Source: Altererythrobacter sp.
Lineage (GTDB): Bacteria; Pseudomonadota; Alphaproteobacteria; Sphingomonadales; Sphingomonadaceae
NCBI GenBank assembly: GCA_031178065.1
Contig: JAPSJS010000034.1
Location: 1 to 37,920, forward strand
Length of the DNA stretch: 37,920 nt
Direction of reading: 5' to 3'
This document shows, piece after piece, positions 14,874 through 30,544 of the stretch (position 1 is the first letter of the stretch; each line of letters opens with the position of its first letter). The translations under genes were made by a program, and so were the position numbers. Below the pieces are notes generated by a model, which had not been told where the DNA came from, ran no database searches, and saw nothing but the letters and a program-made list of their open reading frames with translations.

Positions 14874-14935
14874 CGTTGATCGGCCGGTAACGAAAGGACC
14901 GGCCGATCCTGTTTGCGAACGATACGCTCGACATA

Positions 14936-15436
14936 GTGGCGCGCGGCCTGCTGCTCGCGGTTGCCGCTCTTGCGTGGGTGGTACTGCTCGTCAGGGTCAA
15001 CGGGCTGCGCTCGCTGTCCAAGATGACGAGCTTCGACTTCGTCATGACCATTGCACTGGGCAGCCTCGTCGCCGGAGCATCGCAGGCCGACACCTGGAGC
15101 GGTTTCGCCCAGCCGCTGGTGGCGATGGCGGGGCTGTTCCTAGCACAATGGGGCGCGGCACGGCTGCGCAGGATTTCCCCGGCGGTCGAGAAGATCATCC
15201 AGAACGAACCGGTGCTGCTGATGCGCGACGGCGAGATTCTGCGTGACGCGCTCGACCGGACCCGCGTGGCCGAGAGCGACCTGTTCGCCAAGCTGCGCGA
15301 GGCTGACGTTCGCGATCTCTCGCAAGTGCGCGCGGTCGTGCTCGAGACGACGGGCGACGTCAGCGTCCTGCAGGGTGAAAGCGGAAGCGAACGCCTGCTT
15401 CGGGGTGTGGATCGGGCTGGTGGCTCGAGAAGCTAA
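14936..15436 (+). CDS. DUF421 / YetF-like membrane protein
   Basis: A 166-residue integral membrane protein with two or three N-terminal helices (LLLAVAALAWVVLLVRV; FDFVMTIALGSLVAGA; FAQPLVAMAGLFLAQWG) and a cytosolic alpha/beta tail (VLLMRDGEILRDALDRTRVAESDLFAKLRE). The segment NGLRSLSKMTSFDFVMTIALGS is the DUF421 hallmark. GTG 14936 is the first conventional start, but the frame stays open to 14891 and upstream codons read PILFANDTLDIVARG, which resembles the true DUF421 N-terminus. An AAAGGA site at 14893-14898 stands 7 nt before an ATC (14906) and 10 nt before a CTG (14909), so a non-AUG start is likely. Its stop overlaps the convergent MATE stop in CTAA. Function is unknown. Confidence 0.82.
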   Translation: MARGLLLAVAALAWVVLLVRVNGLRSLSKMTSFDFVMTIALGSLVAGASQADTWSGFAQPLVAMAGLFLAQWGAARLRRISPAVEKIIQNEPVLLMRDGEILRDALDRTRVAESDLFAKLREADVRDLSQVRAVVLETTGDVSVLQGESGSERLLRGVDRAGGSRS

Positions 15437-16770
15437 GCTGCGGCAAACCCGCGGCGCATGAGTGCCGGAAGCATTGCCGCCTGGATCGCCGCACGCGCGA
15501 CGAGGAACAACGCGAAGGCGAGCCACAGGCCCCAGTTGCCGTGCGGCCAGGCGAGCCACAGCACGCCGGCATAGACCGCCGCCGCGCCGAGCATCGAGAC
15601 GAGCAGCGCCCGCGTCCAGCTCGCGCCGACGAAGACACCGTCGAACACGAAGCCGGCGACACCGGCGAAGGGAATCAGGACCAGCCAAAACGCCTGCTGC
15701 CGGGCCGCCTCGGCCACGGCGTCGGTTGCGGCGAAGCTCGCGAGGATCGGATCGGCCAGCAGCGCGAAGGCGAGGGCGACCAGCGCCGCCGCGCCGAAGC
15801 CGCGCAGCAGGATCGCCTTGATATAGCGCGCGAAACCCTCGCGGTCGCGGGCGCCCGCGCGTTCGCCGTTGAGCACTTGCGCCGCGTTCTCGAACCCGTC
15901 GAGCAGCAGCGCGGTGAAGACGAACATCTGGTAGAGGATGCCGTTCGCCGCGAGCACCACGGCGCCACGCTCGGCGCTCAGCCGGGTCAGCGCGGCCAAG
16001 GCGACCATCAGGACCACCGTGCGCAGGAACAGGTCGCGGTTGAGCGAGAGGAACGGGCGCAGGCTGTTCCAACGCAGCACCGTGCGCTCGCGCGCGGCGT
16101 CGAGGATCGTGCGCCCCTGCTCGCCCCGCAGCACGAAGATCGCGACCGCGGCCAGCTTCGCATATTCGGCGGCGAAGCTCGACCAGCCGACACCGGCGAT
16201 TCCCATGTCGAGGCCGAGCACGAACCACAGCCCCAGCGCGACGTTGAGCAAGTTGTAGGCGACCTCGAACACGAGCACCGCCGCCATCCGCCGCCGCCCC
16301 ACGAGATAGCCGATCAGCGCGAGGTTGAGCATGACGCCCGGCGCGGTCCAGTAGCGGATCTCGGCGTAGGTGCGCGCGGCCGCGAGCACCTCGCCCTCCG
16401 CGCCCAGGAGGCCGAGCAGCGCCGGCATCAGCACCGGCTTGGCAATCAGCAGCATGGCCGCGATCGCGATCCCGATCGTCGCCCCGCGCAGCAGTATCGC
16501 CGCCTGTTCCTGCGTGCCGCTGCGCGTGCCCGCCTGCGCGACGAGCCCGGTCGTGCCGGTCTTGAGGAAGTTCATAACGGTGAACAGCACCGCGAACAGC
16601 CGCGCGCCGACGTCCACCGCGCCTTGCGCCGCGGCATCCTCCAGCCGCCCGACGATCCACATGTCGCCGACCCCGATCAGCGCGGTCGCGACATTGGTGA
16701 CCATCGCGGGCAGGGCGATGGCCCAGATGACCCGGGTGTCGAGCGTGGCGGCGGGGGAGGGGGTGGAAAT
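15433..16770 (-). CDS. MATE-family (DinF-like) multidrug/metabolite exporter
   Basis: A cation-coupled exporter with about 12 membrane helices in two six-helix halves. The N-terminal signature WAIALPAMVTNVATALIGVGDMW is characteristic of DinF-type MATE proteins, as are LNLALIGYLVGR and ILYQMFVFTALLLDGFENAA. The first ATG (16704) would cut helix 1 in half: upstream codons continue in frame as TLDTRVIWAIALPA. No ATG, GTG or TTG lies between, but an ATT at 16770 has an AGGAG site exactly 8 nt upstream (16779-16783) and gives 445 residues. An ATT start is therefore proposed. It is 91 nt behind the PepSY gene on the same strand and may be the third gene of the TonB-receptor unit. Substrate is unknown. 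Confidence 0.88.
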   Translation of the reverse strand: MSTPSPAATLDTRVIWAIALPAMVTNVATALIGVGDMWIVGRLEDAAAQGAVDVGARLFAVLFTVMNFLKTGTTGLVAQAGTRSGTQEQAAILLRGATIGIAIAAMLLIAKPVLMPALLGLLGAEGEVLAAARTYAEIRYWTAPGVMLNLALIGYLVGRRRMAAVLVFEVAYNLLNVALGLWFVLGLDMGIAGVGWSSFAAEYAKLAAVAIFVLRGEQGRTILDAARERTVLRWNSLRPFLSLNRDLFLRTVVLMVALAALTRLSAERGAVVLAANGILYQMFVFTALLLDGFENAAQVLNGERAGARDREGFARYIKAILLRGFGAAALVALAFALLADPILASFAATDAVAEAARQQAFWLVLIPFAGVAGFVFDGVFVGASWTRALLVSMLGAAAVYAGVLWLAWPHGNWGLWLAFALFLVARAAIQAAMLPALMRRGFAAA

Positions 16771-16861
16771 CGCCTTGGCTCCTCGCAGCCTCCGCCGCAG
16801 GTCCGGCCGGAGCGCGCCAGCCGTAACCGCTAATCCGGTGCCGCGCTACGGGGCCGTGCGG

Positions 16862-17971
16862 TCAGGGCAGGTCCGCCTGGCGCGGCACCAACGCGCGCGC
16901 CGCGGCGGCCTGCGGGCGCTTCCGCGACTTCGACCGCTTGCTGCCGAACCAGAAGCTCCAGGTCGCGAGCGTGCCGAGGAGTACGAGCGCGAGGCCGGAG
17001 AATGTCAGCACTACCCGCCAGGCCGTGCCGCCGACCTTGCCGGCGTGGACCGGGTAGTACTTCTCGGTGATCGCCGAGGCCGTGTCGCCGGCGGCCGGAT
17101 CGTCCGTCCCGAGAACGGTGCCCGTGGCGGGATCGAGATAGACGTAGGTCCGGCCGTTGGGAGTCCACTCGAAGCTCTGCTTCAGCCGCAGCGTGAGCGG
17201 CGCGCCCGGCTCCTGCGGCAGTGTCAGACGGCGCGGGAACGCGTCGGGGAAAGCGGCCTGCGCATTGGCCATGACGGTCGGCCAGTCGGCCGCGGCGGTG
17301 CCCTGGGCGGACGTTTCCGGCTGGACCAGCGCGGCCGCCTCGGTAGGCTCCGCCCAGGGCGTCAGTAGCGCTTCCGACACGGCGGGGAATATCATGAAGG
17401 CGCCCGTCAGCGCGCTCAGGATCAGCACCGGCGAGGCGACCGCGCCGATATCGCGGTGCTGGCGGATGATCGCGCCCTTGGTGAACCGCGCCGGCCAGAG
17501 GCGGAATTCGAAGGACCTGCGGGTGCGCCACCAGAGGATCAATCCCGTCACCGCGAAGGCCAGCAACAGCAGGCCGAGAGCGCCGGTCAGGTATTCGCCG
17601 ATCTCGCCCATGAACAGGTAGTGGTGCAGGTCGAACAGCCACAGTTCCGGCCGGCCCCACATGTTGTCCCAGCGGTCGACGACCATGCCGGCCTGCGTGA
17701 GATAGGCCCCGCCGCCGTCGGCGTAGATCGCCTGGTGGAGGCCCATGTCGTCGTTGGCGAAGGTGATGCGCGAGAGCGCCGGATCCTCCGCGATCGCCGC
17801 TGCCACGGCCTGCCCGATCAGGGCCGGGTCCGCCGTCAGCGGATCGTCCGCTCCCGGCAGGCCGATCCAGCTCTCCTCCCACACCAGCACCGTGCCGCTG
17901 AGGCCGATCACCGCCAGCAACAGGCCGAGGATGCCCCCGGCCCAGCCGTGCAGGAGGGCGAGCAGGCGCAT
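16862..17971 (-). CDS. PepSY-associated membrane protein (iron-uptake type)
   Basis: A 369-residue inner-membrane protein with four predicted helices: LLALLHGWAGGILGLLLAVI near the N-terminus, YLTGALGLLLLAFAVTGLI, ASPVLILSALTGAFMIF, and a C-terminal WRVVLTFSGLALVLLGTLA. Conserved HHYLFMGEIGE and KYYPVHAGKVGG fit the PepSY_TM (PiuB-like) family, whose members accompany siderophore receptors and are thought to help reduce or release ferric iron; that role is inferred from context. The ATG overlaps the stop of the TonB receptor gene by one base (TGATG), so the two are translationally coupled. The tail is basic (GSKRSKSRKRPQ). Confidence 0.87.
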   Translation of the reverse strand: MRLLALLHGWAGGILGLLLAVIGLSGTVLVWEESWIGLPGADDPLTADPALIGQAVAAAIAEDPALSRITFANDDMGLHQAIYADGGGAYLTQAGMVVDRWDNMWGRPELWLFDLHHYLFMGEIGEYLTGALGLLLLAFAVTGLILWWRTRRSFEFRLWPARFTKGAIIRQHRDIGAVASPVLILSALTGAFMIFPAVSEALLTPWAEPTEAAALVQPETSAQGTAAADWPTVMANAQAAFPDAFPRRLTLPQEPGAPLTLRLKQSFEWTPNGRTYVYLDPATGTVLGTDDPAAGDTASAITEKYYPVHAGKVGGTAWRVVLTFSGLALVLLGTLATWSFWFGSKRSKSRKRPQAAAARALVPRQADLP

Positions 17972-20187
17972 CAGAAAGCACCGCGCCAGCTCAACGTGAA
18001 GGTGCGCCCACGGCCGGCGTAGAAGCGGTTGTTGTCCGTCGTGCGCACGGTGTCGCTGTCGTAGGTGAGGTAGTACTTGTCGGCCAGGTTCTGCACCGCG
18101 AGTGCGAATTCACCAGCGCCCGTCTGATAGGCCAGATAGGCGTCGAGCAGCGTGTAGCCCTCGAAGTCCGTGTCCACGCTAACGTCGTTGAAGGTGCGCG
18201 ACAGGTAGAAGCGCGACTGCAGCCGGGCGCTCAGCGGGCCGCTGCGATAGTCGGCGGAGAGATTGAGCCGGTCCGGCGAGATATTCGCGCCGTCCAGATC
18301 GTTGTTCACCAGTTCGTCTTCATCGTTGCTGTCGGTCTGGCCCTCGATATCGCTGTAAGCCGCGCTGAGCGTGAGGCCGGGCAGCGGCGTGCGCCAGGCG
18401 ATATTCGCCTCCAGCCCCTCGATCTGGATCGGCTGGCGCGAGACGCTGAAGATGCCGTCCTGGCCGAGCACGAGCAGCGATCCCAGATCACTCGACGACC
18501 AGAAATAGCTGACGCCGGCGTCGATCGCCCCGCGCTTCCATTCCAATCCGATTTCGCGGTTGTTGGAGATGACCGGCTCGAGCGCGAGGTAGCTGTCGAT
18601 GTCGACGCCTTCGTCCTCGATCCCGCGCAGGATGCGTCCGACGTCGGCGATCGTGTAGCCTTCGGCATAACTGCCGTAGGCGCGCAGACCCGCGATCGGC
18701 TCGACTATCACGCCGCCGTTCCACAGCACGTCGTTGAACGAGGGGCTGCCGCCCGCGACGGGGACGGGGCGATAAGTGCCGAGATTGTCGGGGACGCCGT
18801 CTCCGTTGTCGTCTTCGTCGTTGCGGCCGTCACCGTCGTGATCGGGAACGCGGCCGTAAAAGGCCAACGTCTCGAAATCGCCCACCTTCAGTTGCACGTC
18901 CTCGTAGCGCGCGCCGCCTGCCAGGCGCACGGCACCGCCGAACAGCGCGAGGTTCGCCTGCGCGAACGGCGCGAGGCTGCGGAAGTCGGTTTCCGGAACC
19001 CAGGTGCGGCCGGTCTGGGCCAGATATTGCTCGGTGCGGTCGAACAGCGCGTCGAAGCCGGCGGTCACGGTCAGATCTTCGAAACCGGGCACGGCGCGCT
19101 CGTAGCTGATCTTGCCGCCGATCTTGCGCGACAGGTTCGCCGACTGGTCGAACAGATTGCCGGTCGGATCGATGGCCGGATCCTGGAACGTGTCGGTGAC
19201 GAGGCCGCCGAACACGTCGCGCGTGCGGCTGAAGAAGGCCTGCACGGCGAATGCGCCGCCGCCGAGATCATCGTCGGTCAGGGCGGCGGAGAGCAGCTCG
19301 GCGCGGTTCGTCGGCGGATCGCCCTGAATGACCCCACGCTCGCTGCTGGCGGGGATGCCTTCGTCGCGATTGCCGGGCACGAGCACGTAGTTGCCGTTGC
19401 CCTGCAGCTCGAACCGGTTGGCGATCACTTCCAGCCGCGCGCTCGGGCTGAGCTGGTAGCCGAAGCGGCCGAACACCGACCAGGAGTCGCTGTCCTGGAC
19501 CTCGCCCTGGGTGCCGTCGACGCCGATGTTGTTGCCGTGTCCGTCCCGATAGGCACCGCGCTGCTCGAACGTCGCGCCGATCGTCGCATCGAAGGCGCCC
19601 GCGCGGTAGCCGACGAGCGAGCCGATCTTGCCGCCCATCGCCGAGCCGTCGAAGCCGTCGGCGGCCGAAGCCTGCAGCAGCGTGCGCGCGGCGACACCGT
19701 CCTCAGCCGGGGCGCCGACGGTGACCTGGTTCACCACGCCGCCGGTGCCGCCGATGCCCTGCAGCGCGTTGGAGCCGTAGATCACCTCGACCCGGTCGAT
19801 GAAGAACGGATCGATCGTGTATCCGTCGCGCGAGCCGTCGCGGACCGGGGTCGACTGCGGGATGCCATTGATCGCGTAGAGCGGCGAGCGGCCACGCAGG
19901 CTCTCGCCCGAACCGGAGAGCTTCTCGCGCGTGGGGGAGAACGAGGGCAGCAGGGCCGAGACCGCATCGACCGTCGAGCCCGAGATCTGCACCTGCTGCT
20001 GCAGCGCTTCAGTGCCGACGACGTCGATCGTCAGCGGCAGGGCGCTGGGCGGAAGCTGGGTACGCGTGGCGCTGACGATGATCTCCGCGTCGCCTTCCGC
20101 TTCCTCGGCGCTGGCCGACTGAGCGGCGGCACCGCCGGACCAGGCAAGTGCAACGGCGAGAGCAGGCAACGAAACGCGGACAAACAT
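17971..20187 (-). CDS. TonB-dependent outer membrane receptor, probably ferric siderophore
   Basis: A 738-residue outer-membrane gated barrel. Signal peptide of about 22 residues ending GGAAAQ, then a TonB-box-like AEIIVSATR, a plug domain (LRGRSPLYAINGIPQSTPVRDG; DRVEVIYGSNALQGIGGTGGVVNQV) and a 22-strand-type barrel ending in the typical aromatic residue (FTLSWRGAF). An unusual Asp-rich loop at about residues 447-470 (DHDGDGRNDEDDNGDGVPD) resembles tandem calcium-binding repeats and would lie in an external loop. A ribosome site AGGGGG precedes the ATG, and a Fur-like half-palindromic box lies 41-55 nt upstream. Coupling to the PepSY gene supports siderophore uptake; the actual ligand is unknown. 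Confidence 0.9.
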   Translation of the reverse strand: MFVRVSLPALAVALAWSGGAAAQSASAEEAEGDAEIIVSATRTQLPPSALPLTIDVVGTEALQQQVQISGSTVDAVSALLPSFSPTREKLSGSGESLRGRSPLYAINGIPQSTPVRDGSRDGYTIDPFFIDRVEVIYGSNALQGIGGTGGVVNQVTVGAPAEDGVAARTLLQASAADGFDGSAMGGKIGSLVGYRAGAFDATIGATFEQRGAYRDGHGNNIGVDGTQGEVQDSDSWSVFGRFGYQLSPSARLEVIANRFELQGNGNYVLVPGNRDEGIPASSERGVIQGDPPTNRAELLSAALTDDDLGGGAFAVQAFFSRTRDVFGGLVTDTFQDPAIDPTGNLFDQSANLSRKIGGKISYERAVPGFEDLTVTAGFDALFDRTEQYLAQTGRTWVPETDFRSLAPFAQANLALFGGAVRLAGGARYEDVQLKVGDFETLAFYGRVPDHDGDGRNDEDDNGDGVPDNLGTYRPVPVAGGSPSFNDVLWNGGVIVEPIAGLRAYGSYAEGYTIADVGRILRGIEDEGVDIDSYLALEPVISNNREIGLEWKRGAIDAGVSYFWSSSDLGSLLVLGQDGIFSVSRQPIQIEGLEANIAWRTPLPGLTLSAAYSDIEGQTDSNDEDELVNNDLDGANISPDRLNLSADYRSGPLSARLQSRFYLSRTFNDVSVDTDFEGYTLLDAYLAYQTGAGEFALAVQNLADKYYLTYDSDTVRTTDNNRFYAGRGRTFTLSWRGAF

Positions 20188-20227
20188 GGGATCCCCCTGA
20201 ACTGTGTGGCGGGTCCGCTAGCAGTAC

Positions 20228-20242
20228 TGCAACTAGCTCGCA
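20228..20242 (-). promoter_or_regulatory. Candidate Fur-like box before the TonB receptor
   Basis: Read on the minus strand, TGCGA-GCTAG-TTGCA is an imperfect inverted repeat (one mismatch) with 5-bp arms and a 5-bp centre. This is close to the TTGCGA...TCGCAA style reported for alphaproteobacterial Fur sites. It is 41-55 nt ahead of the receptor ATG. Confidence 0.35.
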
Positions 20243-20553
20243 ATAGCATCTTTGGGCATGTGCCGGGGGAAGCCGCAGCCGGGGAACGGGGCTGGTCGGT
20301 CTTGGTGAACTGTCGAGACCGAAATTCATGCATCGGGTGGACCGCCGAACCGGGCGCGGGAGCTCGGTTCGTCATCGCCGCTCGGGCGGGCCGGCGCGCT
20401 GCACGAAGTGGCACAGGCGGCTACTCGGTGACGAGGCCTCATACTGTACCGGGCCCTGCTCGATGTTTCGGGCGGTCGGTGATGGATGCCGACTCTGGCC
20501 ACCGCGCATGTGCGCACGATCCATCGAGTGTGAGACGGTTTGTCGAGGCGGCG
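20243..20553. other. Divergent spacer without a gene
   Basis: The 466-nt region between the two divergent TonB-receptor genes (20188-20653) holds the Fur-like box at one end and the Pho-like direct repeat at the other. The middle shows no supported coding frame or RNA gene. Frames that are open here lack ribosome sites and recognisable protein features. A small palindrome GCGCATGTGCGC lies at 20504-20515. Confidence 0.6.
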
Positions 20554-20571
20554 CTGACTTACGCCTGACAT
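20554..20571 (+). promoter_or_regulatory. Candidate Pho box before the TonB receptor/phoD unit
   Basis: CTGACTT-ACGC-CTGACAT is a direct repeat with the 7-4-7 spacing of a PhoB box (consensus CTGTCAT twice). The halves match 5/7 and 6/7. It lies 83-100 nt before the receptor ATG. The PhoD phosphatase gene downstream independently suggests phosphate control. Confidence 0.5.
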
Positions 20572-20653
20572 CTTCCCGACCTCGAACCGAAACACCGCGC
20601 GCTTAGGCCCCCGGCCGACCGGCTCTTCCGGCGGTTTCGATTGAAGGGGTCTC

Positions 20654-23284
20654 ATGTCCATCACCGTTCCCGTGCTCGCAAACGCGGGCCGCACGCTTGC
20701 GCCTCATCTGCTTTTTGGCACCTCGATTTTAGCCCTCGGTGCCTCATCCGCGCTTGCGCAGGATGCGTCTGCCAATGCGGAAATCGCCGAGATCGTGGTC
20801 ACCGGCTCCGCGCTGCAGAATCAGGCGGAGATCGAGACACGCCGGCAGGCGACGGCGATCGTCGATTCTCTCTCGCGCGACGAGATCGGCGCGCTGCCCG
20901 ACATCACGATTGCGGAATCGCTGCGCCGCATCACTGGCGTCAGCACGGTCTACAATGACGACATCGGCCAGTTCGCGTCCATTCGGGGTACGCACCCCGA
21001 TTTCGTGCCGGTGACGATGAACGGGCTGACCCTGGCCACGACCGGCGATCACGGGGAGGGCACCCGCAAGGTCAATCTGCAGGTCATTCCCGGCGAGGCC
21101 GTTCAGCAGCTGCGCGCCTACAAGACACTGTCGCCGGATCTGGATGCCGGGGCGCTGGGCGGGCTGATCGATATCGTCACCGTTAGCGCGTTCGATCCGC
21201 TGCGGGCCCCGCTGAGCGTCACTGCGGGAGCCAGCTACACCAGCTATATGGACGTGCCCGACGACAACAGTTTTGCGGATCAAAAGGACAGCCCGATCGG
21301 TCCGTCGCTGAGTGCGATCTGGTCCCCGCGCTTCGGCGCCGACGAGAGCTGGGGGCTGGTGGTGACCGGGATGTACGAAGTGCGTCCGCGCACGCAGTCG
21401 AACAACGCCATCGCCAACCGGCTCTACTTCAACGACGCGGGTCAGCAGACGACGCCGGACTCCGAGGACTGGAACGGATTTGCCGCGCCCAATTCCTTCG
21501 TCTCGCACAACTACACCAACAAGTTCACCAAGTTCGGGGGCACGGCGCGTCTGGAGTACCGGCCCAGCGACCGCGTCAGCTCAAGCTTGTTCGGCTTCGC
21601 CTATTTCTCCGACGAGCAGGAAACCCGCAACACCAACCGAGTCTATCGTCTCGACCAGGCGCAGGATCAGACCGAGAATACCGGCACCATGCGGGTGCGC
21701 AACGCAGACACCCAGTGGCGCTACAACAGCTTCGAGCGCGATCAGCGGGGCCTGCAATGGTTGAACGACATTGCAATCGGCGATCGTGGCCATCTGTCGG
21801 CAGACCTCGGCTATTCCTACGCCTGGTATCGTTCATGGCGGCCCTTCGTCGCGTTCGACTACGCGGCGGGCACGCGGCTTACCTACGACCTGACCAACGA
21901 AAGCGTGCCGTTCATTCTCGACAACGGCAATGCCTATCTCGAGGCGGCCAACTACGCGACCAACAATCATTACGAGGATGTGCGGGAGGCCACCGCCCAT
22001 GTCTACGAAGGCCGCTTGGATTACGGCTTCAACAATCGTCGGGACGATCGCGGTATCGGCTTCGCGTTGGGCGCATCCTACCGGGACATGGACCTGGAGC
22101 GCGACAACAGCGCCATCGTCTACGAGAACGGCACCAGCCTCGCCGGCTACGCTTTCACTCCAGACTTTAACACGCCTGGTTACAGCCATCCCGCGCTCTG
22201 GCTCGATCGCGGTCGGTTTTACGCCGAGGTTGTTCCCGGTGTGCCCGTTGACGACGCGGAAAGCGACCGCCGCACTCGCGTCAACGATTACAGCTATCGG
22301 GAAAAGATCGCCGCAGCCTATGTGAACGGGACTTTCACCTCGGATATGCTGCGGCTCGATGCCGGCGCCCGGCTCGATCATGTCGATTTCACTGCCGACA
22401 TGGCGCAGGTGCTCGACGGCGTGCTGCAGTCGGACCAGGTCCGGTACGCAGGCAAGGACACCCACCTGCTTCCCTACGCGACGGCCAATCTCGCGCTAAC
22501 ACCGTCGCTGCGCATCAAGGCTGCAGCCAGCCAGACGCTCGGTCGCCCCAATCCCGAGACGATCGCCACCGTGGAAGACGTCGACCGGACCGAACTAGTG
22601 ATCACTCGCGGCAACCCGCATATCCAACCGCGCAGGTCCACCAATCTCGATCTCGGCCTCGAATACTACTTCAACGCCGGGCGAGGCATGGCGACGCTGA
22701 CCGGCTTCTACAAGAAGATCACGGACGACATCCTGACCGTCAGCTCGCAGGAGGTGATCGGGGGTGAGGCCTATACGGTTTCCCAACCGATCAATGGCGA
22801 GGACACGACCTACCAGGGCATCGAAATCGGCCTGATCAACAACAGCTTCGGCAACGTCTATCATGCGCTCGATCGCATCGGCGCCCAAGCCAACTTCATC
22901 TGGACCGAGGGCTCGACCACCTACCTCGAAGGAGAGGAACTGCTCGAACGCGATCAGTTGCAATACCAGTCCGACATCGCGGCGAACGCGGCCGTCTTCT
23001 ACGATCTGGGCGGCGGGTCGGAACTGCGCCTCGCGATGAATCACCAGGGCGGATACGTCGAGAGCTTTGCCGCCAATGCCTGGCAGGACATCTACATCGA
23101 GCCGTTCACGACGTTCGACCTCACGGCGCGCTGGGCGGTGACGCCGCGTCTGCAACTGCGCCTCGAGGGGCGGAATATCTTCGGAGCCGATCGGCGGCGC
23201 ACCACCGGCCCCGATCACGAATATTTCCGGGCCGGTCTCGAGGTGGGGAACACCTGGTACCTGCGCGCCAACTTCCGCCTCTGA
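20654..23284 (+). CDS. TonB-dependent outer membrane receptor linked to PhoD
   Basis: An 876-residue receptor of the Caulobacter/sphingomonad long type. The signal peptide ends near GASSALAQ (residue 36), followed by the TonB box AEIVVTGS. The plug has the DALPDI-like motif IGALPDITIAESLRRITGV with SIRGTHPDFVPVTMNGL and GLIDIVTV. The C-terminal barrel shows ASQTLGRPNPETIA and LRLEGRNIFGADRRRT. It ends in Leu (RANFRL) rather than the usual terminal Phe or Trp. AAGGGG ribosome site before the ATG. A Pho-box-like repeat lies upstream and a PhoD phosphatase 69 nt downstream, so uptake of a phosphate ester or its product is inferred. Ligand not determined. Confidence 0.9.
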   Translation: MSITVPVLANAGRTLAPHLLFGTSILALGASSALAQDASANAEIAEIVVTGSALQNQAEIETRRQATAIVDSLSRDEIGALPDITIAESLRRITGVSTVYNDDIGQFASIRGTHPDFVPVTMNGLTLATTGDHGEGTRKVNLQVIPGEAVQQLRAYKTLSPDLDAGALGGLIDIVTVSAFDPLRAPLSVTAGASYTSYMDVPDDNSFADQKDSPIGPSLSAIWSPRFGADESWGLVVTGMYEVRPRTQSNNAIANRLYFNDAGQQTTPDSEDWNGFAAPNSFVSHNYTNKFTKFGGTARLEYRPSDRVSSSLFGFAYFSDEQETRNTNRVYRLDQAQDQTENTGTMRVRNADTQWRYNSFERDQRGLQWLNDIAIGDRGHLSADLGYSYAWYRSWRPFVAFDYAAGTRLTYDLTNESVPFILDNGNAYLEAANYATNNHYEDVREATAHVYEGRLDYGFNNRRDDRGIGFALGASYRDMDLERDNSAIVYENGTSLAGYAFTPDFNTPGYSHPALWLDRGRFYAEVVPGVPVDDAESDRRTRVNDYSYREKIAAAYVNGTFTSDMLRLDAGARLDHVDFTADMAQVLDGVLQSDQVRYAGKDTHLLPYATANLALTPSLRIKAAASQTLGRPNPETIATVEDVDRTELVITRGNPHIQPRRSTNLDLGLEYYFNAGRGMATLTGFYKKITDDILTVSSQEVIGGEAYTVSQPINGEDTTYQGIEIGLINNSFGNVYHALDRIGAQANFIWTEGSTTYLEGEELLERDQLQYQSDIAANAAVFYDLGGGSELRLAMNHQGGYVESFAANAWQDIYIEPFTTFDLTARWAVTPRLQLRLEGRNIFGADRRRTTGPDHEYFRAGLEVGNTWYLRANFRL

Positions 23285-23291
23285 CCAATCG

Positions 23292-23317
23292 GGCCCGGGC
23301 TTGAACACGCCCGGGCC
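23292..23317 (+). terminator. Strong hairpin between receptor and phoD
   Basis: GGCCCGGGC (23292-23300) and GCCCGGGCC (23309-23317) form a perfect 9-bp GC stem with an 8-nt loop, followed by TCTCCTTTCC. It lies 8 nt after the receptor stop and 37 nt before the phoD ATG, so it may attenuate transcription or stabilise the receptor mRNA. Confidence 0.55.
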
Positions 23318-23353
23318 TCTCCTTTCCTGGAACGCTTTGAAAGAGACGAGATC

Positions 23354-24892
23354 ATGCCCACGACCCGCCGGGATCTTCTGCTTCGCGCCTCTATCGTCGC
23401 CGGTACGGCATTGCTCCCCACCTATGGCCAGCGTCTCCTGGCGCAGCCGCGATTTGCCACGCACCCGTTCACGCTCGGCATCGCTTCGGGCGATCCGGAG
23501 GCCAACGGGGTGGTTCTCTGGACGCGCCTGGCGCCGTCCCCGCTAGATGACCATGGCGGCATGCCGGCTGAGGCCGTTATGGTCGGATGGGAAGTGGCTG
23601 AGGACGAAGCGTTCACCCGCGTGGCACGCAAAGGCACGGCCTGGGCACTCCCGCAGGCGGCGCATTCGGTGCATGTCGAAGTCGACGGCCTCCGCCCCGA
23701 CCGCGTCTACTATTACCGCTTCCACACTGCCGGCGAGACGAGCGGTATTGGTCGTACCCGCACCGCGCCTGCCCCGGATGCCGATGTGCAGGCCCTGCGC
23801 TATGCCTTCACGGCCTGTCAGCACTACGAAACCGGATACTACGGTGCCTATCGGCAACTCGTTGCGGACGATCCCGCGCTCGTGCTGTTTCTGGGCGACT
23901 ACATCTACGAGCGGCCGGGACGGGACCGGGGGCCGCGGCGCCATCCGGACGAGCATGCTGCGGACCTGGCGAGCTATCGCCGCCGCCATGCGCTGTACAA
24001 GACCGATCCCGACCTTCAGGCCGCTCACGCGGCCGCGCCCTGGCTCACGATCTGGGACGATCACGAGGTCGAGAACAACTACAGCGGCGATGTATCGCAG
24101 GATGGCGGCGACAGCCCCTCGTTTCTGGTCCGCCGCGCGGCCGCCTACCAAGCCTATTACGAACACATGCCTCTTCGGCGGCGGTCGATCCCGGTGGGGC
24201 CGCAGATGCAGCTTTACCGCAGTCTCGCCTGGGGCAATCTGGCGCGATTCCAGATGCTCGATGCCCGTCAGTACCGCGATCACAGGCCCTGCCCGGACCT
24301 GTCGCCCGACCGCAAGACCGTTTCGGATTGCGCCGAACGCCTCGACCCGTCGCGCAGCATGCTGGGCTCCGAGCAGGAACGCTGGCTGTTCGGCGAGCTT
24401 GCTGGGAGCAATGGGCGCTGGAATGTCATTGGTCAGCAATTTGCCATGGCTGAATCCTCGCAGATCGATCCGCAGACTGGCGACCCTCGTTTCGGGGTCG
24501 ATGGGTGGGACGGCTACCCCGCCGCGCGTGACCGCATCCTCGCCTTCCTGCGCGATGCGCAAATATCCAATCCGGTCGTGATAGGCGGCAACAGCCACGC
24601 CTTCATAGCCTCTGAACTCTCGCTCGAACCCGAGGGTCCCGTCATCGCGCCGGCCTTCGTCGGTGGGTCGCTCAGCTCGACAAGCGGCTCGGCACCTGAC
24701 GATCTACTGCGCAAGACCCCTCAGATGCGGTTCGCAGAAACCCAACGCCGCGGCTACTCGATCGTCGATGTCACGCCGGAAAGTAGCATACTGACAATGC
24801 GCGCCGCCGCCGACGCGACCGATCCTCAGACAACAACTTCTACGCTCAGAACCTTCGCCATCGAGAGCGGGGTGCCCGGTTTTGGCCTTTAG
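23354..24892 (+). CDS. phoD: PhoD-family alkaline phosphatase/phosphodiesterase
   Basis: An exported calcium/iron-type phosphatase releasing phosphate from organic esters. The N-terminus carries a twin-arginine signal (TTRRDLLLRASIVAGTALLP, Arg5-Arg6), so it is folded before export. A PhoD N-terminal fibronectin-like domain (FTLGIASGDPEANGVVLWTRLA) is followed by the metallophosphatase domain: TACQHYETGYYGAY (about 153-166), FLGDYIYE (179-186), WDDHEVENNY (234-243), and GGNSHAF near residue 415. The 512 residues are normal. It follows a TonB receptor and a Pho-box-like site, consistent with phosphate-starvation control. The specific substrate is unknown. Confidence 0.93.
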   Translation: MPTTRRDLLLRASIVAGTALLPTYGQRLLAQPRFATHPFTLGIASGDPEANGVVLWTRLAPSPLDDHGGMPAEAVMVGWEVAEDEAFTRVARKGTAWALPQAAHSVHVEVDGLRPDRVYYYRFHTAGETSGIGRTRTAPAPDADVQALRYAFTACQHYETGYYGAYRQLVADDPALVLFLGDYIYERPGRDRGPRRHPDEHAADLASYRRRHALYKTDPDLQAAHAAAPWLTIWDDHEVENNYSGDVSQDGGDSPSFLVRRAAAYQAYYEHMPLRRRSIPVGPQMQLYRSLAWGNLARFQMLDARQYRDHRPCPDLSPDRKTVSDCAERLDPSRSMLGSEQERWLFGELAGSNGRWNVIGQQFAMAESSQIDPQTGDPRFGVDGWDGYPAARDRILAFLRDAQISNPVVIGGNSHAFIASELSLEPEGPVIAPAFVGGSLSSTSGSAPDDLLRKTPQMRFAETQRRGYSIVDVTPESSILTMRAAADATDPQTTTSTLRTFAIESGVPGFGL

Positions 24893-24918
24893 AGCGCCGC
24901 CGACGCCCTTAATAAGGC

Positions 24919-25149
24919 GTGATGCTTTCGGGGTTGCGCCAAAGATTCTTAGCGTCCGGTATTCGGCCTCATGCACGGCAAGTGCAGGCCCTCTCAATGT
25001 TTCTCTCAGCAGCGGCGCTGGATCGTCCGGTGGTGTTCGGGGGTGACTTCAACCTGCGTGGCTCGCAGCAGCGCTTCGACGTGTTCGAGGCGGGAAACAC
25101 GCTCCGCCTCGTGCACCGGTATTGCGCTGCGTGGGAGGCACGGTTTTAG
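24919..25149 (+). pseudogene. Remnant of an endonuclease/exonuclease/phosphatase-family gene
   Basis: A 76-codon frame whose middle reads RQVQALSMFLSAAALDRPVVFGGDFNLRGS when taken in pieces. RPVVFGGDFNLRGS is the metal-binding GDFN block of the endonuclease/exonuclease/phosphatase superfamily, and the helix before it fits the same fold. The first 150 or more and last 60 or so residues expected of such an enzyme are absent, and no convincing ribosome site is present, so it is read as a decayed fragment. Its position directly behind phoD suggests that a third phosphate-scavenging gene was once part of this unit. Confidence 0.6.
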
Positions 25150-25199
25150 CGCGCCTCTCATCACTATTGTTCGGCTCTAGGAGGAATTCGCCTTCCGCC

Positions 25200-25230
25200 G
25201 GTGATACGTCGGCCCGCGAGGGGTGTCACC
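25200..25230 (+). promoter_or_regulatory. Leader hairpin upstream of uppP
   Basis: GGTGATAC (25200-25207) pairs with GTGTCACC (25223-25230) with one wobble. It lies 28 nt before the proposed uppP start. A strong AGGAGG at 25179-25184 upstream of it has no start codon at a usable distance. The rest of the 366-nt gap between phoD and uppP is the pseudogene. Confidence 0.35.
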
Positions 25231-25258
25231 TTGCTCGTTCGTGCGCCATGGCATGCCC

Positions 25259-26101
25259 ATGACCTTCCTGGAACAACTTCTACTCGCCCTCATTCAAGGC
25301 GCTACCGAGTTCCTGCCGGTAAGCTCGTCCGCGCATCTTATTCTGGGCCGCACGTTGATGCAGTGGCTCGGGCTGGCCAGCGGCGAAATGTCCGCAGCGG
25401 AAGAACTGGCATTCGATGTTGCGCTACACCTCGGCTCCCTTGGCGCGGTCCTGATCTACTTTCGCGGCGAGGTCCGCATGATGGGGGCCGGTCTGTTCGA
25501 TCTGGCCACCGGTGTCCGCTCGGCGAACGCCTGCACGCTGATAAATGTAGCGGCCGCAACTGCTCCCATTCTCGGTGCAGGCTTTCTCCTGAGGGGCGCC
25601 GTCACCGACATGGCACGCAGTGTCGAGCTCATCGCCGCCACGACCATTCTCTTCGGTCTCCTCCTGTGGAGTGCGGACCGCCGAGCCGAGGAGATCCGCC
25701 ACATCGATAAGATGAAGCTACGTGACGCGTTGCTCATCGGGGCCGCTCAATGTGTGGCTCTCGTTCCAGGAGTCAGCCGAAGCGGCATATGTATGACCGC
25801 CGGACGCTTTCTCGGGCTCGATCGAAGTCTTTCGGCGCGTTTCGCGATGCTGCTATCGATTCCCACCATCCTTGCGGCCGGACTGTTGACGTCCTTCGAT
25901 CTGGCCAGAGCAGGGAACGTCAGGCTTACAGCCGACGCAGCAACGGGTGCCGTTTTCGCCTTCTTCAGTGCATGGGCGGCGATCGCTCTGCTCATGCGTT
26001 GGCTGAAAACCGGATCCTACTTGCCATTCGTTCTCTACCGCCTGGGCTTGGGGGCTCTGCTCGTGCTCCTCCTCGCAGGCGGTGCGCTGAGAACCGGCTG
26101 A
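25259..26101 (+). CDS. uppP: Undecaprenyl-diphosphatase
   Basis: Inner-membrane enzyme that dephosphorylates undecaprenyl pyrophosphate to recycle the lipid carrier for peptidoglycan and other envelope polymers (BacA type, bacitracin tolerance). The two signature segments are present: ALIQGATEFLPVSSSAHLIL with the catalytic Glu, and VALVPGVSRSGICMTAGRFLG with the conserved Arg-Ser. About eight membrane helices. The ATG at 25259 (MTFLEQLLLAL) gives 280 residues and the usual family N-terminus. ATG 25253 and GTG 25223 are also open, and none has a clear ribosome site. The gene stands alone between the phoD region and nhaA. It may be an additional copy, since most genomes encode one elsewhere; that cannot be judged from this window. 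Confidence 0.92.
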   Translation: MTFLEQLLLALIQGATEFLPVSSSAHLILGRTLMQWLGLASGEMSAAEELAFDVALHLGSLGAVLIYFRGEVRMMGAGLFDLATGVRSANACTLINVAAATAPILGAGFLLRGAVTDMARSVELIAATTILFGLLLWSADRRAEEIRHIDKMKLRDALLIGAAQCVALVPGVSRSGICMTAGRFLGLDRSLSARFAMLLSIPTILAAGLLTSFDLARAGNVRLTADAATGAVFAFFSAWAAIALLMRWLKTGSYLPFVLYRLGLGALLVLLLAGGALRTG

Positions 26102-26166
26102 GCGATCGTCGGCAACCGCCGCTGCCTGCAGTCTCGCAGGATCGGAGAAGTGATTCGTGCGGGCGG

Positions 26167-26195
26167 TTGCGCTTCGCATATTCCGATGCGATAGG
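26167..26195 (+). promoter_or_regulatory. Candidate promoter of the nhaA leader
   Basis: TTGCGC, 17 nt and GATAGG. The predicted start falls near 26202, exactly where the folded nhaA leader begins. Confidence 0.4.
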
Positions 26196-26202
26196 CTCAA
26201 GC

Positions 26203-26284
26203 GGGTGTTCGCCGTCCAGAGGTGAACAGGGTTGATCGTTGGTCGGGCCGCCAGCGAGAATGCAACTGCCCGGAGAACACCTCG
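26203..26284 (+). promoter_or_regulatory. Structured leader RNA of nhaA, probable nhaA-I (Li+) class riboswitch
   Basis: The 82 nt before the nhaA ATG can fold in competing ways. GGTGTTC (26204-26210) is fully complementary to GAACACC (26275-26281), which lies between the GGAG ribosome site (26272-26275) and the ATG. The same bases GTTC also start an alternative hairpin, GTTCGCC (26207-26213) with GGTGAAC (26221-26227). CGGGC (26244-26248) pairs with GCCCG (26268-26272), covering part of the ribosome site, and GTTG (26238-26241) with CAAC (26263-26266) makes a crossing pseudoknot. Position before a Na+/H+ antiporter gene matches the known nhaA-I RNA class, reported to sense lithium. The class name is from context and memory, not from a covariance search. 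Confidence 0.65.
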
Positions 26285-27469
26285 ATGGCCCCCAAGCATC
26301 ATCGCCCCAGCGCCTTGCGCCAGTTTCTTGAGGGACAGTCCTCAGCCGGACTTGTCCTCATGGGGGCGGCAGCGCTTGCGCTTTTGCTCGCCAACTCGCC
26401 TGCTGCGGCGGCTTATGAGACGATCCTGCACACCTACGTGGGTCCGTTGTCTCTCAGCCACTGGATCAACGACGGCCTGATGACGGTATTCTTCCTGCTC
26501 GTCGGTCTGGAAATCAAGCGCGAGGTGCTGGATGGACAGCTGTCCACCTGGCCGCGCCGCGCTTTGCCGGGGATCGCCGCTGTTGGCGGAATGGTGGTGC
26601 CCGCCCTGATATACCTTGCGTTCAATACCGGCGCGACGGCTCGTGGCTGGGCGATCCCGGCGGCGACCGACATCGCTTTCGCTCTTGGCGTCATCTCTCT
26701 CCTGGGCGACCGCGTCCCGGCATCGCTACGGGTGTTCCTGGCAGCGCTCGCCATCATCGACGACCTCGGCGCCGTGATCATCATCGCCTTGTTCTACACG
26801 GCGGGGCTGTCCTTGCCGGATCTGGCTGCCGCAGCTGCCATCACCGTTGCCCTGATCGCGCTCAACCGGTTCGGCGTACGCCGGCTCGCACCTTTCCTCC
26901 TCCTGGGACTTGTGTTGTGGCTGTTCGTCCTGCGCTCAGGGGTGCATGCCACGCTCGCCGGCGTGATCCTCGCTTTTGCGATCCCGCTGCAGCCCACGCC
27001 TGGCCGCTCCGACGCTGAGAACCGCGGCCCTCTTCATCGACTGGAGCACGCGCTTCACATACCCGTGGGCTTCCTGATCGTGCCAATCTTCGGGTTGGCA
27101 AACGCTGGCGTGCCGTTCCTCGGATTGCCAGCAGCGGCGCTTGCGGCGCCAGTCACGCTCGGCATCGGGCTCGGCTTGCTCGTGGGCAAAGTTATCGGTG
27201 TGTTTGGCTTTTCGATGGTGGCCATTCGCTTGGGCCTTGCCGACATGCCCGCCTACGCGAGCCGCGTTCAGATGGCGGGAACCGCACTGCTATGCGGCAT
27301 CGGCTTCACCATGAGTCTCTTCATCACCCTTCTTGCATTTCCCGGTGATCCGCTCATCCAAACCGAGGCCAAGATCGGCATCCTGGCGGGCTCCCTGGTG
27401 TCGGGGCTCATCGGCTTTGCACTACTTCGATGGGCTCGCAGTGACTGGCCGCCTTCTCCGTCGCGCTGA
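26285..27469 (+). CDS. nhaA: Na(+)/H(+) antiporter NhaA
   Basis: Inner-membrane antiporter exporting Na+ or Li+ in exchange for protons, for salt and alkaline tolerance. About 12 helices in 394 residues, close to the 388 of E. coli. Functional landmarks are present: PAATDIAFALGVISLLGDR (the unwound helix IV region with its Asp), ALAIIDDLGAVIIIALFY (the ion-binding Asp pair) and GLLVGKVIGVF (the conserved Lys). ATG 26285 (MAPKHHRPSALRQFLEG) is chosen over an upstream ATG at 26222 because GGAG stands 9 nt before it and the upstream region folds as an RNA. Expression is probably controlled through that leader. Confidence 0.95.
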   Translation: MAPKHHRPSALRQFLEGQSSAGLVLMGAAALALLLANSPAAAAYETILHTYVGPLSLSHWINDGLMTVFFLLVGLEIKREVLDGQLSTWPRRALPGIAAVGGMVVPALIYLAFNTGATARGWAIPAATDIAFALGVISLLGDRVPASLRVFLAALAIIDDLGAVIIIALFYTAGLSLPDLAAAAAITVALIALNRFGVRRLAPFLLLGLVLWLFVLRSGVHATLAGVILAFAIPLQPTPGRSDAENRGPLHRLEHALHIPVGFLIVPIFGLANAGVPFLGLPAAALAAPVTLGIGLGLLVGKVIGVFGFSMVAIRLGLADMPAYASRVQMAGTALLCGIGFTMSLFITLLAFPGDPLIQTEAKIGILAGSLVSGLIGFALLRWARSDWPPSPSR

Positions 27470-27569
27470 GTTAGAGATTGTGCTGGCGCTCCGGTGCAGG
27501 TGGCAGACGGCTTGCGAGCAGATCCTTCCTCGCTCGTTAATAAAGGCGTTTTCAAAGGCTTAGAAGGTT

Positions 27570-27646
<77 letters not shown>

Positions 27647-27674
27647 ACCTGATCTGGCCGTTGCAGGTATCCGG

Positions 27675-27748
27675 TGGGCCCGGCAGGACTCGAACCCGCG
27701 ACCTAGCCGTTATGAGCGGCCAGCTCTAACCAACTGAGCTACAGGCCC
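27675..27748 (-). tRNA. tRNA-Ile2 (CAU, lysidine-modified)
   Basis: A 74-nt cloverleaf on the minus strand with loop CTCATAA, anticodon CAT. The acceptor GGGCCTG/CGGGCCC and the anticodon arm GCCG/CGGC style match tRNA-Ile2 (anticodon C34 modified to lysidine by TilS) rather than elongator or initiator tRNA-Met. The CCA end is not encoded (ACCG). It sits 28 nt upstream of tRNA-Pro(UGG) and may be cotranscribed with it. Elongator tRNA-Met is the alternative, judged less likely. Confidence 0.9.
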
Positions 27749-27791
27749 ATGGATACCGTTCAGCGTGTCGCGCGTAGCTTGCGGCCCGGCA

Positions 27792-27821
27792 GGTGGCAAG
27801 ATGGCTTGCTACGTTGCCACC
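27792..27821. terminator. Hairpin at the 3' end of the deacetylase gene
   Basis: A perfect 8-bp inverted repeat, GGTGGCAA (27792-27799) and TTGCCACC (27814-27821), spans the stop codon of the minus-strand deacetylase gene. No U-tract follows. One arm would also hold a possible -35 (TTGCCA) for the tRNA pair, with a poor TACGCG -10. Confidence 0.4.
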
Positions 27822-28807
27822 GATCGCATGATCTCCGCCACGGTCGTCGGCTTCACGCCATGCTGGCCAAGATAGGCGTAAACCGCGCGAAACCAATCGT
27901 AGAGCGCGTCGAGATCGGCGTCGGTCTCGACATAAGAAGTATATCCGGGCGCGAGCGAGGGGCTGTGGAATGACAGCACGATCAGCGGCAGCTCGTCGTC
28001 CAGCGCCATGTCGAGCGCGCGGATCGCCTCGTCGATCGTGGTTCCTTCGGGCGTCAGCGGGATGCGTTCGAGCAGGCCGAGGTTGGCAAAGGCGCCGCTC
28101 ATGCGCGGCATGCGCGCGATCATCGGATGCAGCAGCCGCCCCTGCCGCCGCAGCATGCCCCAGTAGACTGTCGTCAGCGGCAGCTCGAGCACGGACCTCT
28201 CGCCATCGAGCCAGAACGGTTCGAGCGGATAGGCGCTGTAGTCGGGGCCGTGGCGGTGGCTGTAGTCGAACAGCGGGCGGAACGAGGTGTCGATCCCGAC
28301 CCCTGCGTCGCGCAGCAGCTCGGTGGTCTCGGGACCGAAGCCGTAACGGCCCGCGCGGTAGAGCTGGGGGCTCGCGCCGAAGTTCTCCGCGATCGCGTCG
28401 CGCAGGCGCAGGAACTTGGCGCGCTCTATGTCGGGCGCGAGATTGCCGGCGAACGAGTTGCGCTCGCTCACCTCCTCCTCGAACGGAGGATTGACCCACG
28501 GGTGGAGCTGGATGCCGACTTCCGCCGTGCCCTGGCTGACCGGCCCCGCGAGAATGTCCTTCGCCAGCGAGGACGTGGCCACGGGCCAGTCGACCAGATA
28601 GCTAGGCACGACGCCGAGGCGCTCGCAGAACTCCTGGAAGTTGCGCAGGCGCGGCAGGTGATCGAGCCCGTGTCGGTCGCGGGTGAACGGGCCGTCCCAG
28701 TCGAACTCCTCTTCGGTATCGACGGTGAGGAGGACGCGCCGCCCGAATCCGTTCACGAAGCGCGCCTTGGGGCCGGGTGGCGGCGGGGCAGTCCTCGGTT
28801 GGTTCAT
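27809..28807 (-). CDS. WalW-like polysaccharide deacetylase-family protein
   Basis: A 332-residue protein of the NodB/polysaccharide deacetylase superfamily in the variant called WalW in sphingomonads and rhizobia. The first motif is VLLTVDTEEEFDWDGPF, with the catalytic-type Asp and extra acidics. VGIQLHPWVNPPF corresponds to the metal-binding His motif, YRAGRYGFG to motif 3, and VLSFHSPSLAPGYT to a late His motif. It has no signal peptide, so it may act in cytosolic or membrane-associated polysaccharide synthesis; the substrate is unknown. ATG 28807 has a GGAG site 9 nt upstream, preferred to 28837. The gap to the upstream histidine kinase gene is 33 nt, so they are probably cotranscribed. 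Confidence 0.82.
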   Translation of the reverse strand: MNQPRTAPPPPGPKARFVNGFGRRVLLTVDTEEEFDWDGPFTRDRHGLDHLPRLRNFQEFCERLGVVPSYLVDWPVATSSLAKDILAGPVSQGTAEVGIQLHPWVNPPFEEEVSERNSFAGNLAPDIERAKFLRLRDAIAENFGASPQLYRAGRYGFGPETTELLRDAGVGIDTSFRPLFDYSHRHGPDYSAYPLEPFWLDGERSVLELPLTTVYWGMLRRQGRLLHPMIARMPRMSGAFANLGLLERIPLTPEGTTIDEAIRALDMALDDELPLIVLSFHSPSLAPGYTSYVETDADLDALYDWFRAVYAYLGQHGVKPTTVAEIMRSVAT

Positions 28808-28840
28808 GCGCTGCACTCCCGGACGCGAGGGCCGCATCGT

Positions 28841-30544
28841 TCAGCGCGCTTGCGGTCGTCGCCTTTCTTGGCGGTTCGAACCGGGGCTAGGATCGCCCCT
28901 CGCAGCGGTCAATAGCGGCAGCGTGAGCCGCAGCCGCTCGTCCACATGTTCGAGGTCGCCGCCGGCCGCGCGGGCTTCGGCGCGGACCAGGCGCAGGGCG
29001 AAGCCCGCGCCGAACATCCCGGCGCTCAGGGCGCCCGGTGCGGGGCGCGGAGCGGCGGCGAACACGTCCTCTTCCGTCGCCAGCACGGCCGGCAGTGTGG
29101 CGGTCAGCGCCATCGCATCGCCCTCCGCGCGCATCGCGACCTCCACCGCCTCGCCCGCGCCGAGCGCGGTCGCCAGCGTGGCGAACAGGCGCCAGGCGAG
29201 CGCCTCCCCCTCGCGCAGGGCCATCGGCACGACCAGCGGGGAGAGCGGAATGTCCGCCTCGAACTTCGCCATGCGCGGCGCGAGAACGCCTTCGAGTTGC
29301 TTCGCCAGCCCGCGGCACAGCAGCGCGAAATCGCAGTCGCCCTCGAGCGGTTCGAGCGCGCCGGTTTCCAGCTGGGCAAGGCGGTCGAGTTCGTCGAACC
29401 CGGCCAGCATCCGCGCGCTATCGGCGGCAATGTTGGCGGCGAGCGCGCGGTATTCGTGCGGCACAGGGCCGAAGACCTGCTGCTGGATGACCTCGGCGAA
29501 GCCCTGGATCGCGTTGACCGGCGTGCGCAACTCGTGGAGCAGCTGGCGAATGCGGTCCGCCTCGATCGCGGCATCGGGCGCGGCGCCGGCGACCCGGTGC
29601 GGCGCCGGACGGCGGAACTTGCCCGCGAGACCGTAGAACCGGCCGCCAAGCACGGTGAAGCGCGGGGCGGCGTCGACGATCCACTCGCCCGCGATCTGGG
29701 GCGCGCCGCGCAAATCGACCGGCGCGCGTTCGACTCGCTGCCAGGCTCTCAGGGCGCTGCGGATTTCGTCGGTCATAAGATGCGTGCCGACGACCATCGG
29801 CGCGACCTGCGGTTCGGCCCAGTCGATCCGCCCTTCGCTGTCGGTGGTGAAGGCGAAGCCCATGAGCGGCGGGCGCGCCGTCTCCTCCTGTTCGCCGAGG
29901 GGCAGGCGAGGGGAGGTGTCGGCCGTGGCGCTCTTCGCGCGGGCGCGCTGGAACGCCTCGATCCGCCGGACCAGCGCGCCGATCGCGCTTTCCTCTCCGG
30001 CTTCGCCGCTGTCGTTCGCCGGAATGGTGAGCTCGAGCGGCTCGCGTGAACGCGGATCTTCGCGCTGGATCCGGCTTTCGCTGGCGGGCTGCACGACGAG
30101 GTCAGGGACGGGGAGCCCGCGATCGTGGATGCCCAGGCGGTCGAGCAGGTTCGTTGCGCGCGGCGGCAAGCCGCTGCGCAGGCGCAGGAATCCGCGTGCA
30201 CGGATCGGCAGGCGCGGGATCAGCGCCTCCCAGTCCTCTTCGGCGAGATCGGCGCGCGCGAGGGCGGCGGCCGCCACTTCGGGCTCGTCCTCCGCGAGGT
30301 GTGCGGCCAGCTCCGGATTGCGGAAGCGCCAGCCGGTATCGCGAATCATCGCCGCGCGGTCAGGCGCAGGGATCGTCTCCCCCAGCGCGCCAAGCCGCAG
30401 CCAGGCGGCGGAGAGGAGGTTGCGGTCGTAGGCGCCGCGCCGGGCGCCGAGCAGGTCGAGCAATTGCCGGAACTGCGTGCGCGCGGCACGTCCGTCGCTC
30501 GCGCGGTGGCGCAGCACTGTGGCAAGGCGATCGTCGAACTGCAT
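28841..30544 (-). CDS. Soluble histidine-kinase-like protein with degenerate ATPase domain
   Basis: A 567-residue protein without membrane helices. Residues about 1-135 are helical and repeat-like (RNPELAAHLAEDEPEVAAAALARADLAEEDWEALI in pieces), resembling DUF2336/HEAT-type repeats. Residues about 225-315 look PAS-like (FAFTTDSEGRIDWAEP; GRFYGLAGKFRRP). A normal H-box follows, LLHELRTPVNAIQGF, with His337. In the ATPase region the N-box asparagines are not seen (LAWRLFATLATALGAG), no DxGxG motif is present, and only a G2-like GAGFALRLVRAEARAAGG remains. It may therefore relay phosphate rather than bind ATP, or regulate by binding. Ribosome site GTAGGA precedes the ATG. Confidence 0.8.
   Translation of the reverse strand: MQFDDRLATVLRHRASDGRAARTQFRQLLDLLGARRGAYDRNLLSAAWLRLGALGETIPAPDRAAMIRDTGWRFRNPELAAHLAEDEPEVAAAALARADLAEEDWEALIPRLPIRARGFLRLRSGLPPRATNLLDRLGIHDRGLPVPDLVVQPASESRIQREDPRSREPLELTIPANDSGEAGEESAIGALVRRIEAFQRARAKSATADTSPRLPLGEQEETARPPLMGFAFTTDSEGRIDWAEPQVAPMVVGTHLMTDEIRSALRAWQRVERAPVDLRGAPQIAGEWIVDAAPRFTVLGGRFYGLAGKFRRPAPHRVAGAAPDAAIEADRIRQLLHELRTPVNAIQGFAEVIQQQVFGPVPHEYRALAANIAADSARMLAGFDELDRLAQLETGALEPLEGDCDFALLCRGLAKQLEGVLAPRMAKFEADIPLSPLVVPMALREGEALAWRLFATLATALGAGEAVEVAMRAEGDAMALTATLPAVLATEEDVFAAAPRPAPGALSAGMFGAGFALRLVRAEARAAGGDLEHVDERLRLTLPLLTAARGDPSPGSNRQERRRPQAR

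Follow-up and report, generated by a model that had tools for sequence, protein, structure and literature searches.

A predicted Li+-I riboswitch upstream of an accessory nhaA gene in Altererythrobacter, and a ribosome-site element that may be shared with mrpA leaders

The leader of an nhaA gene in Altererythrobacter sp. holds several mutually exclusive pairings, and raises the question of which of them belong to a conserved switch, to which ion that switch would respond, and how it could act on the gene. The locus lies in the window analysed here, a stretch of 37,920 nucleotides (assembly GCA_031178065.1, contig JAPSJS010000034.1). An initial annotation had taken the leader for an nhaA-I class, Li+-sensing RNA with four helices that controls translation of NhaA. 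The gene downstream (26285..27469, + strand, 394 aa from the ATG at 26285) does encode NhaA, a Na+/H+ (Li+/H+) antiporter; its product matches PF06965 in Pfam (E 1.6e-138), and exceeds the cut-offs of NF007111 (535 bits, cut-off 423) and TIGR00773 (420.2 bits, cut-off 254). A second, divergent UppP/BacA-like gene occupies positions 25223-26101, immediately 5' of the riboswitch.

When the whole window was searched against Rfam 15, four matches exceeded the curated cut-offs, three tRNAs and nhaA-I. The nhaA-I model, RF03057, matches 26203-26256 on the + strand with 48.0 bits against a cut-off of 37 (E 1.2e-6), which bears out the proposed class. In a permissive scan of 25900-26500 the alignment spans the full model (positions 1-55), and nhaA-II and DUF1646, whose models belong to the Rfam library, were absent among the three matches up to E 10; the other two, ASpks and COG2908, were weak and both well under cut-off. 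The aptamer has the conserved GGGUG, CAGG and UGGUCGGGCCGCCA elements and both hairpins, with all pairs checked: P1 (26207..26227, pairing 26207-26213 with 26221-26227) and P2 (26237..26256, pairing 26237-26243 with 26250-26256 around the loop CGGGCC at 26244-26249, from the model alignment). It is the sole copy found in this genome, and ends 28 nt upstream of the nhaA ATG. The nhaA-I RNAs that have been tested are Li+-selective ON switches, named Li+-I (White et al., 2022, PMC9646797), so the lithium sensing ascribed to the class is published. The nhaA leader is a further member of this class, with Li+ binding itself predicted. Because RF03057 matches above cut-off, an intact NhaA follows directly, and the class has been validated as a Li+-selective ON switch, the whole is very probably best explained as an nhaA-I (Li+-I) riboswitch that switches NhaA translation on at high Li+.

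A variant of the Na+-II type would have the same platform and fold and would sense a different ion. The nhaA-I collection does contain such variants, which are distinguished by the single reported position C54U, with U in Li+-I and C in Na+-II (D. propionicus RNA numbering; PMC9646797), and NhaA carries both Na+ and Li+. However, the Na+-II variants reported there have terminators, come from Deltaproteobacteria and precede genes of unknown function, whereas the window RNA precedes nhaA, a scan of 26095-26300 found no terminator-like site, and the RF03057 alignment retains both U residues of the conserved UGGUCGGGCC, although the mapping of position 54 is uncertain; we consider Na+ sensing unlikely. 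We think it very improbable that the leader, as part of an acquired unit, has decayed and lost its function. Its score is the eighth among 13 family-search hits, it has G instead of the consensus U after CAGG, and the unit is accessory, but the conserved core, P1, P2 and nhaA are all intact and the ribosome-site element has been retained.

Relatives of the aptamer were gathered by a family search and an exact-pattern scan, the latter contributing at least 119 stretches. Since the search pattern fixed most bases of P2 and its loop together with the first pair of P1, only P2 pair 4 and P1 pairs 2-8 count as evidence of covariation. Among the matches listed we retained 134 distinct aptamers, including four further below-cut-off hits (L136, L137, L149, L150); where matches overlapped, the longer one was removed (L107, L123, L127), as were three weak hits (L012, L013, L151). 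P1 pairs 2-8 are standard in 126, 104, 98, 105, 91, 95 and 97 of these, against permuted means of 115.1, 89.5, 73.7, 90.1, 60.1, 60.1 and 77.7; at every pair the observed count exceeds the highest of 500 permutations, a procedure that leaves relatedness in. P2 pair 4 is standard in 122 of the 134 listed aptamers (permuted mean 105.3, maximum 111). P1 is thus supported by covariation across related aptamers, and it is the GTTCGCC/GGTGAAC hairpin (26207-26213 and 26221-26227) of the initial annotation. With P2 it makes up the conserved fold, so that of the four-helix drawing P1 stands, while the fold reduces to two hairpins.

The leaders were then compared around the ribosome site. Among the matches listed, 154 aptamer places were present in 151 loci, 109 of them followed within 600 nt by NhaA in the same orientation; in 102 of these a start was called within 60 nt, which gave 65 representatives below 80% identity, and 63 once two longer duplicates were dropped. 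These comprise 20 short-spacer leaders, with the ribosome site directly after P2, and 43 with a long spacer (18-40 nt in 42 of them), the latter mostly from sphingomonads and Roseomonas relatives and including the window leader. The motif RYCYGGA is found in 24 of the 31 long-spacer leaders (of 42) with GGA at the right distance, compared with 1 of 67 other gene starts with GGA suitably placed, of 243 starts taken from these loci and from the window (Fisher 1.3e-15, relatedness not corrected). In the window the ribosome site GCCCGGAG (26268..26275, + strand) lies inside this element, and complements the P2 loop at 26244-26248 and the 5' GGG. The initial annotation had paired CGGGC (26244-26248) with GCCCG (26268-26272) across the GGAG ribosome site, of which G26272 is the first base; that helix sits on the enriched element, but its partner is less certain, as RYCYGGA can pair with the P2 loop CGGGC or the 5' GGGUG, and these hardly vary, so the comparison cannot tell which of the two it pairs with. 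As raw counts, 30 of the 43 long-spacer leaders and 5 of the 20 with a short spacer have a five-base complement of the P2 loop. The additional crossing pairing drawn between GTTG (26231-26234 or 26238-26241) and CAAC (26263-26266) can be read in the window; CAAC is found in only 3 of the 43 long-spacer leaders and in none of the 20 with a short spacer, so that homologous leaders break the pairing without compensation; it is not a conserved element and was ruled out as a fourth helix. In three Sphingomonas nhaA leaders (L021, L025, L028) there is no ATG, GTG or TTG at the usual place after the ribosome site, where ATC stands.

The remaining pairing of the initial annotation, GGTGTTC (26204-26210) with GAACACC (26275-26281), competes with P1 for strand 26207-26213. 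This helix can extend across the ribosome site, as GGGUGUUC-G-CCG with CGG-A-GAACACCU, and forced-fold and duplex energies mark CGGAGAACACCU (26271..26282, + strand) as a putative OFF-state partner of GGGUGUUCGCCG (26203-26214). Nested energies for 26202-26320 are -42.8 kcal/mol for the free fold, -40.8 with the aptamer forced and -40.1 with the alternative forced. The duplex with its CCG/CGG extension has an energy of -16.8; among 243 other gene starts 4.5% do as well, and among 5975 31-mers drawn at random from the window 5.3%, which is only suggestive of a pairing beyond chance. Across 42 long-spacer leaders, 5' strand and start region score -12.36 for complementarity, against -10.40 in shuffled sequence (p 2e-6), and long-spacer leaders also differ from other gene starts (-12.33 vs -10.64, p 1.5e-4); helices of at least 7 pairs are present in 19 of 43, compared with 27% of shuffles. 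Short-spacer leaders have no such excess of helices with 6 or 7 pairs. Exchanging start regions between leaders changes nothing (fraction as good 0.225, 42 leaders), and over 63 leaders own start regions pair no better than swapped ones (-10.58 vs -10.99); lineage-specific compensation between 5' strand and start region was accordingly rejected. The best tenth of local controls is reached by 15 of 63 leaders for the 5' strand and 15 of 63 for the P2 loop. Hence the GGTGTTC/GAACACC proposal keeps a strong duplex in this leader and loses the compensatory change expected in its relatives; what remains is an apparent conserved complementarity of the 5' strand, in long-spacer leaders only. A nested fold test on 59 of the 63 leaders (four were dropped as lacking a ribosome-site motif) gave p 0.07 for the accessibility difference, p 0.15 for pairing with the first 14 nt and p 0.02 for the energy gap. 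In the window the ribosome site is unpaired at 0.28 in the ON and 0.34 in the OFF state, opposite to the expected freeing, while in the OFF state it pairs with the first 14 nt at 0.65, compared with 0.30 for shuffled sequence.

We infer a masking model for the window leader. In the absence of Li+, the ribosome site would be masked by pairing of its region GCCCGGAGAACACC with the 5' strand GGGUGUUCGCCG, the P2 loop CGGGC or both; Li+ would hold P1 and P2 together, occupying those strands and freeing the site, and NhaA would then export Li+ (or Na+). The model gains support because the aptamer and masking folds are near equal in energy and share strand 26207-26213, P1 covaries, RYCYGGA is enriched at the ribosome site, and 5'-strand complementarity exceeds that of shuffles and other starts. 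It is weakened because swapped start regions do equally well, the aptamer fold does not free the window site, and short-spacer leaders lack the helix excess. Furthermore, a published loop double mutant lowers the Li+ response (PMC9646797), which counts against the loop acting only as a mask, since breaking a mask should raise expression. The authors of that study speculate that most nhaA-I members control ribosome access. Rare relatives use terminators (PMC9646797), and a switch acting mainly on transcription, by termination or RNA decay, would be the alternative to control of ribosome access; given that the scan of 26095-26300 yielded no terminator-like site and that the conserved element lies on the ribosome site itself, there is little chance that this applies here. 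The promoter-like pair of the initial annotation (TTGCGC, 17 nt, GATAGG) was a reading by eye that a sigma-70 consensus scan of 26095-26300 did not reproduce (0 promoter-like sites), and the start near 26202 is putative.

The same aptamer also precedes genes other than nhaA. Among the matches listed there are 176 distinct loci, of which 126 have NhaA, 21 MrpA and 29 neither by this test. Pfam searches with seven proteins from loci without NhaA identified four MrpA (L014, L087, L105, L121), one PF07399, one DUF389 and one glycosyltransferase-like protein; at L092, nhaA-I lies 22 nt upstream of a 507-codon ORF with a DUF389 domain. In the 21 mrpA loci (L014, L017, L048, L051, L063, L072, L087, L093, L094, L096, L105, L121, L167, L179, L188, L197, L200, L213, L218, L219, L239) the mrpA start is 87-442 nt after P2; at L167 the called start has no start codon. 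Seventeen of them have the long-spacer platform and, at the position of the nhaA start, a TTG (14) or CTG (3) from which an ORF of 15-142 codons runs. The other four have a GTG ORF of 2-3 codons, and the ATG at its end begins a leader ORF of 31-34 codons. These start criteria, with CTG admitted, were fixed after the loci had been seen. The leader ORF from the riboswitch's ribosome site ends at most 19 nt from the mrpA start in 21 of 21 loci, and at most 16 nt in 18, which suggests translational coupling. The other two frames end likewise in 7 of 42 cases, and shuffling of the stretch predicts 5.3 of 21, the shuffle null being high (0.39-0.77) at seven loci, including all four ATG cases. In the stretch leading to mrpA, 19 of the 21 loci are below 70% identity, though still kin.

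We favour, by a modest degree, a reading in which sphingomonad and Roseomonas-type Li+-I switches share one platform, an RYCYGGA ribosome site that would pair with invariant G-rich aptamer strands, and in which the same platform before mrpA in Sphingomonas-type genomes would drive a leader ORF abutting the mrpA start. If so, Li+ would switch on the whole Mrp antiporter through translational coupling, and with the mrpA loci the known lithium response would extend from a single-protein antiporter to one of several subunits, by way of a leader ORF.

In the Bosea nhaA loci L049 and L076 a leader ORF of 30-35 codons finishes at the nhaA start, like the mrpA overlap; unlike these, the leader ORF of L135 ends 108 nt short. 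The TTG of an mrpA-type leader is in frame with nhaA in L027 and L123, as an N-terminal extension. In Aureimonas (L107, L119, L129) a 53-codon ORF that encodes a hydrophobic stretch takes the place of an nhaA start after nhaA-I, and in L066 and L071 the nhaA frame after the riboswitch stops at 66-68 codons, through a broken copy or sequencing error.

How the unit came to this genome is a separate question. Matches to nhaA-I were found in 13 of 397 genomes of the family (11 above cut-off), 6 of 385 at class level and 16 of 398 at phylum level, the window genome being in each count; in the genus of G355, 79 of 295 genomes have one. Under strict filters the match is absent from the six congeners of the window genome. 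All seven genomes of the genus carry NhaA relatives with 52-54% identity to the window's, that of the window genome on contig C28, and the riboswitch-linked copy is present only in the window genome among the seven. The nearest proteins to the window NhaA are of Roseomonas type (81.6% to L034); in a tree of 37 chosen rows it groups with seven Roseomonas-type rows with support 91/92 (unstarred by the program), and the Pseudoroseomonas row L058 is outside this group. The unit lies in a 7.3-kb block (20279..27561) with a TonB receptor, a PhoD-like phosphatase and the second UppP/BacA-like gene. In congener G282 (L262) the block is absent between tRNA-Pro and 20278, and blastn places window segments 14346-20278 and 27562-29838 only 65 nt apart; in congener G209 the gap begins at window 16799. 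The block is edged by tRNA-Pro (TGG; 27570..27646, - strand), and homology to three congeners stops at 27569, 27562 and 27570, the end of this gene. The PhoD gene is found elsewhere in G160 at 95% identity, with a DNA match to 21845-24898, and the block is therefore not wholly private to the window. Relatives of the UppP-like protein in congeners, and the genome's other copy, are only 29-31% identical. In nhaA and uppP, GC3 is 0.75 and 0.70; the two genes beyond the tRNAs have 0.87 and 0.86, although other window genes are low as well. We read the block as acquired at the tRNA gene, with no integrating element found: no integrase was among the 10 ORFs (of 29 listed) searched against Pfam, and a search of the window for a second attachment repeat met the tRNA-Pro 3' end again only in another tRNA-Pro gene. 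The locus thus adds one more nhaA under a known ion switch, with gene and switch together on an accessory block.

In comparison with known systems, the window RNA resembles the Li+-I class of RF03057 (PMC9646797) in its whole-model match, both hairpins, the conserved bases, the nhaA gene downstream and a ribosome site soon after P2, and nothing places it outside this family. The main text of PMC9646797 contains none of the words 'sequester', 'pseudoknot' or 'mrp'; a base-paired model of the translational platform was not found in that source, nor a link between a Li+ riboswitch and an mrp antiporter in the literature examined. The RYCYGGA platform comes from the present comparison, is not described in that literature and may be new, as may the mrpA leader ORFs alongside it. 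The Na+-I riboswitch (DUF1646 motif; PMC9337991) is also an alkali-ion ON switch, with an architecture similar to nhaA-I according to PMC9646797, and nhaA-II RNA (Li+-II) also controls nhaA in response to Li+ (PMC9646797) through another fold; the window leader differs from both in giving no match to their models in the permissive scan. Translated leader ORFs under a riboswitch have a precedent in the B12 riboswitch before ppe2 of M. tuberculosis, where the next gene needs the translated leader ORF (PMC11260477). That system parallels the mrpA loci, not the window, and differs from them in ligand, fold and gene, and in being an OFF switch.
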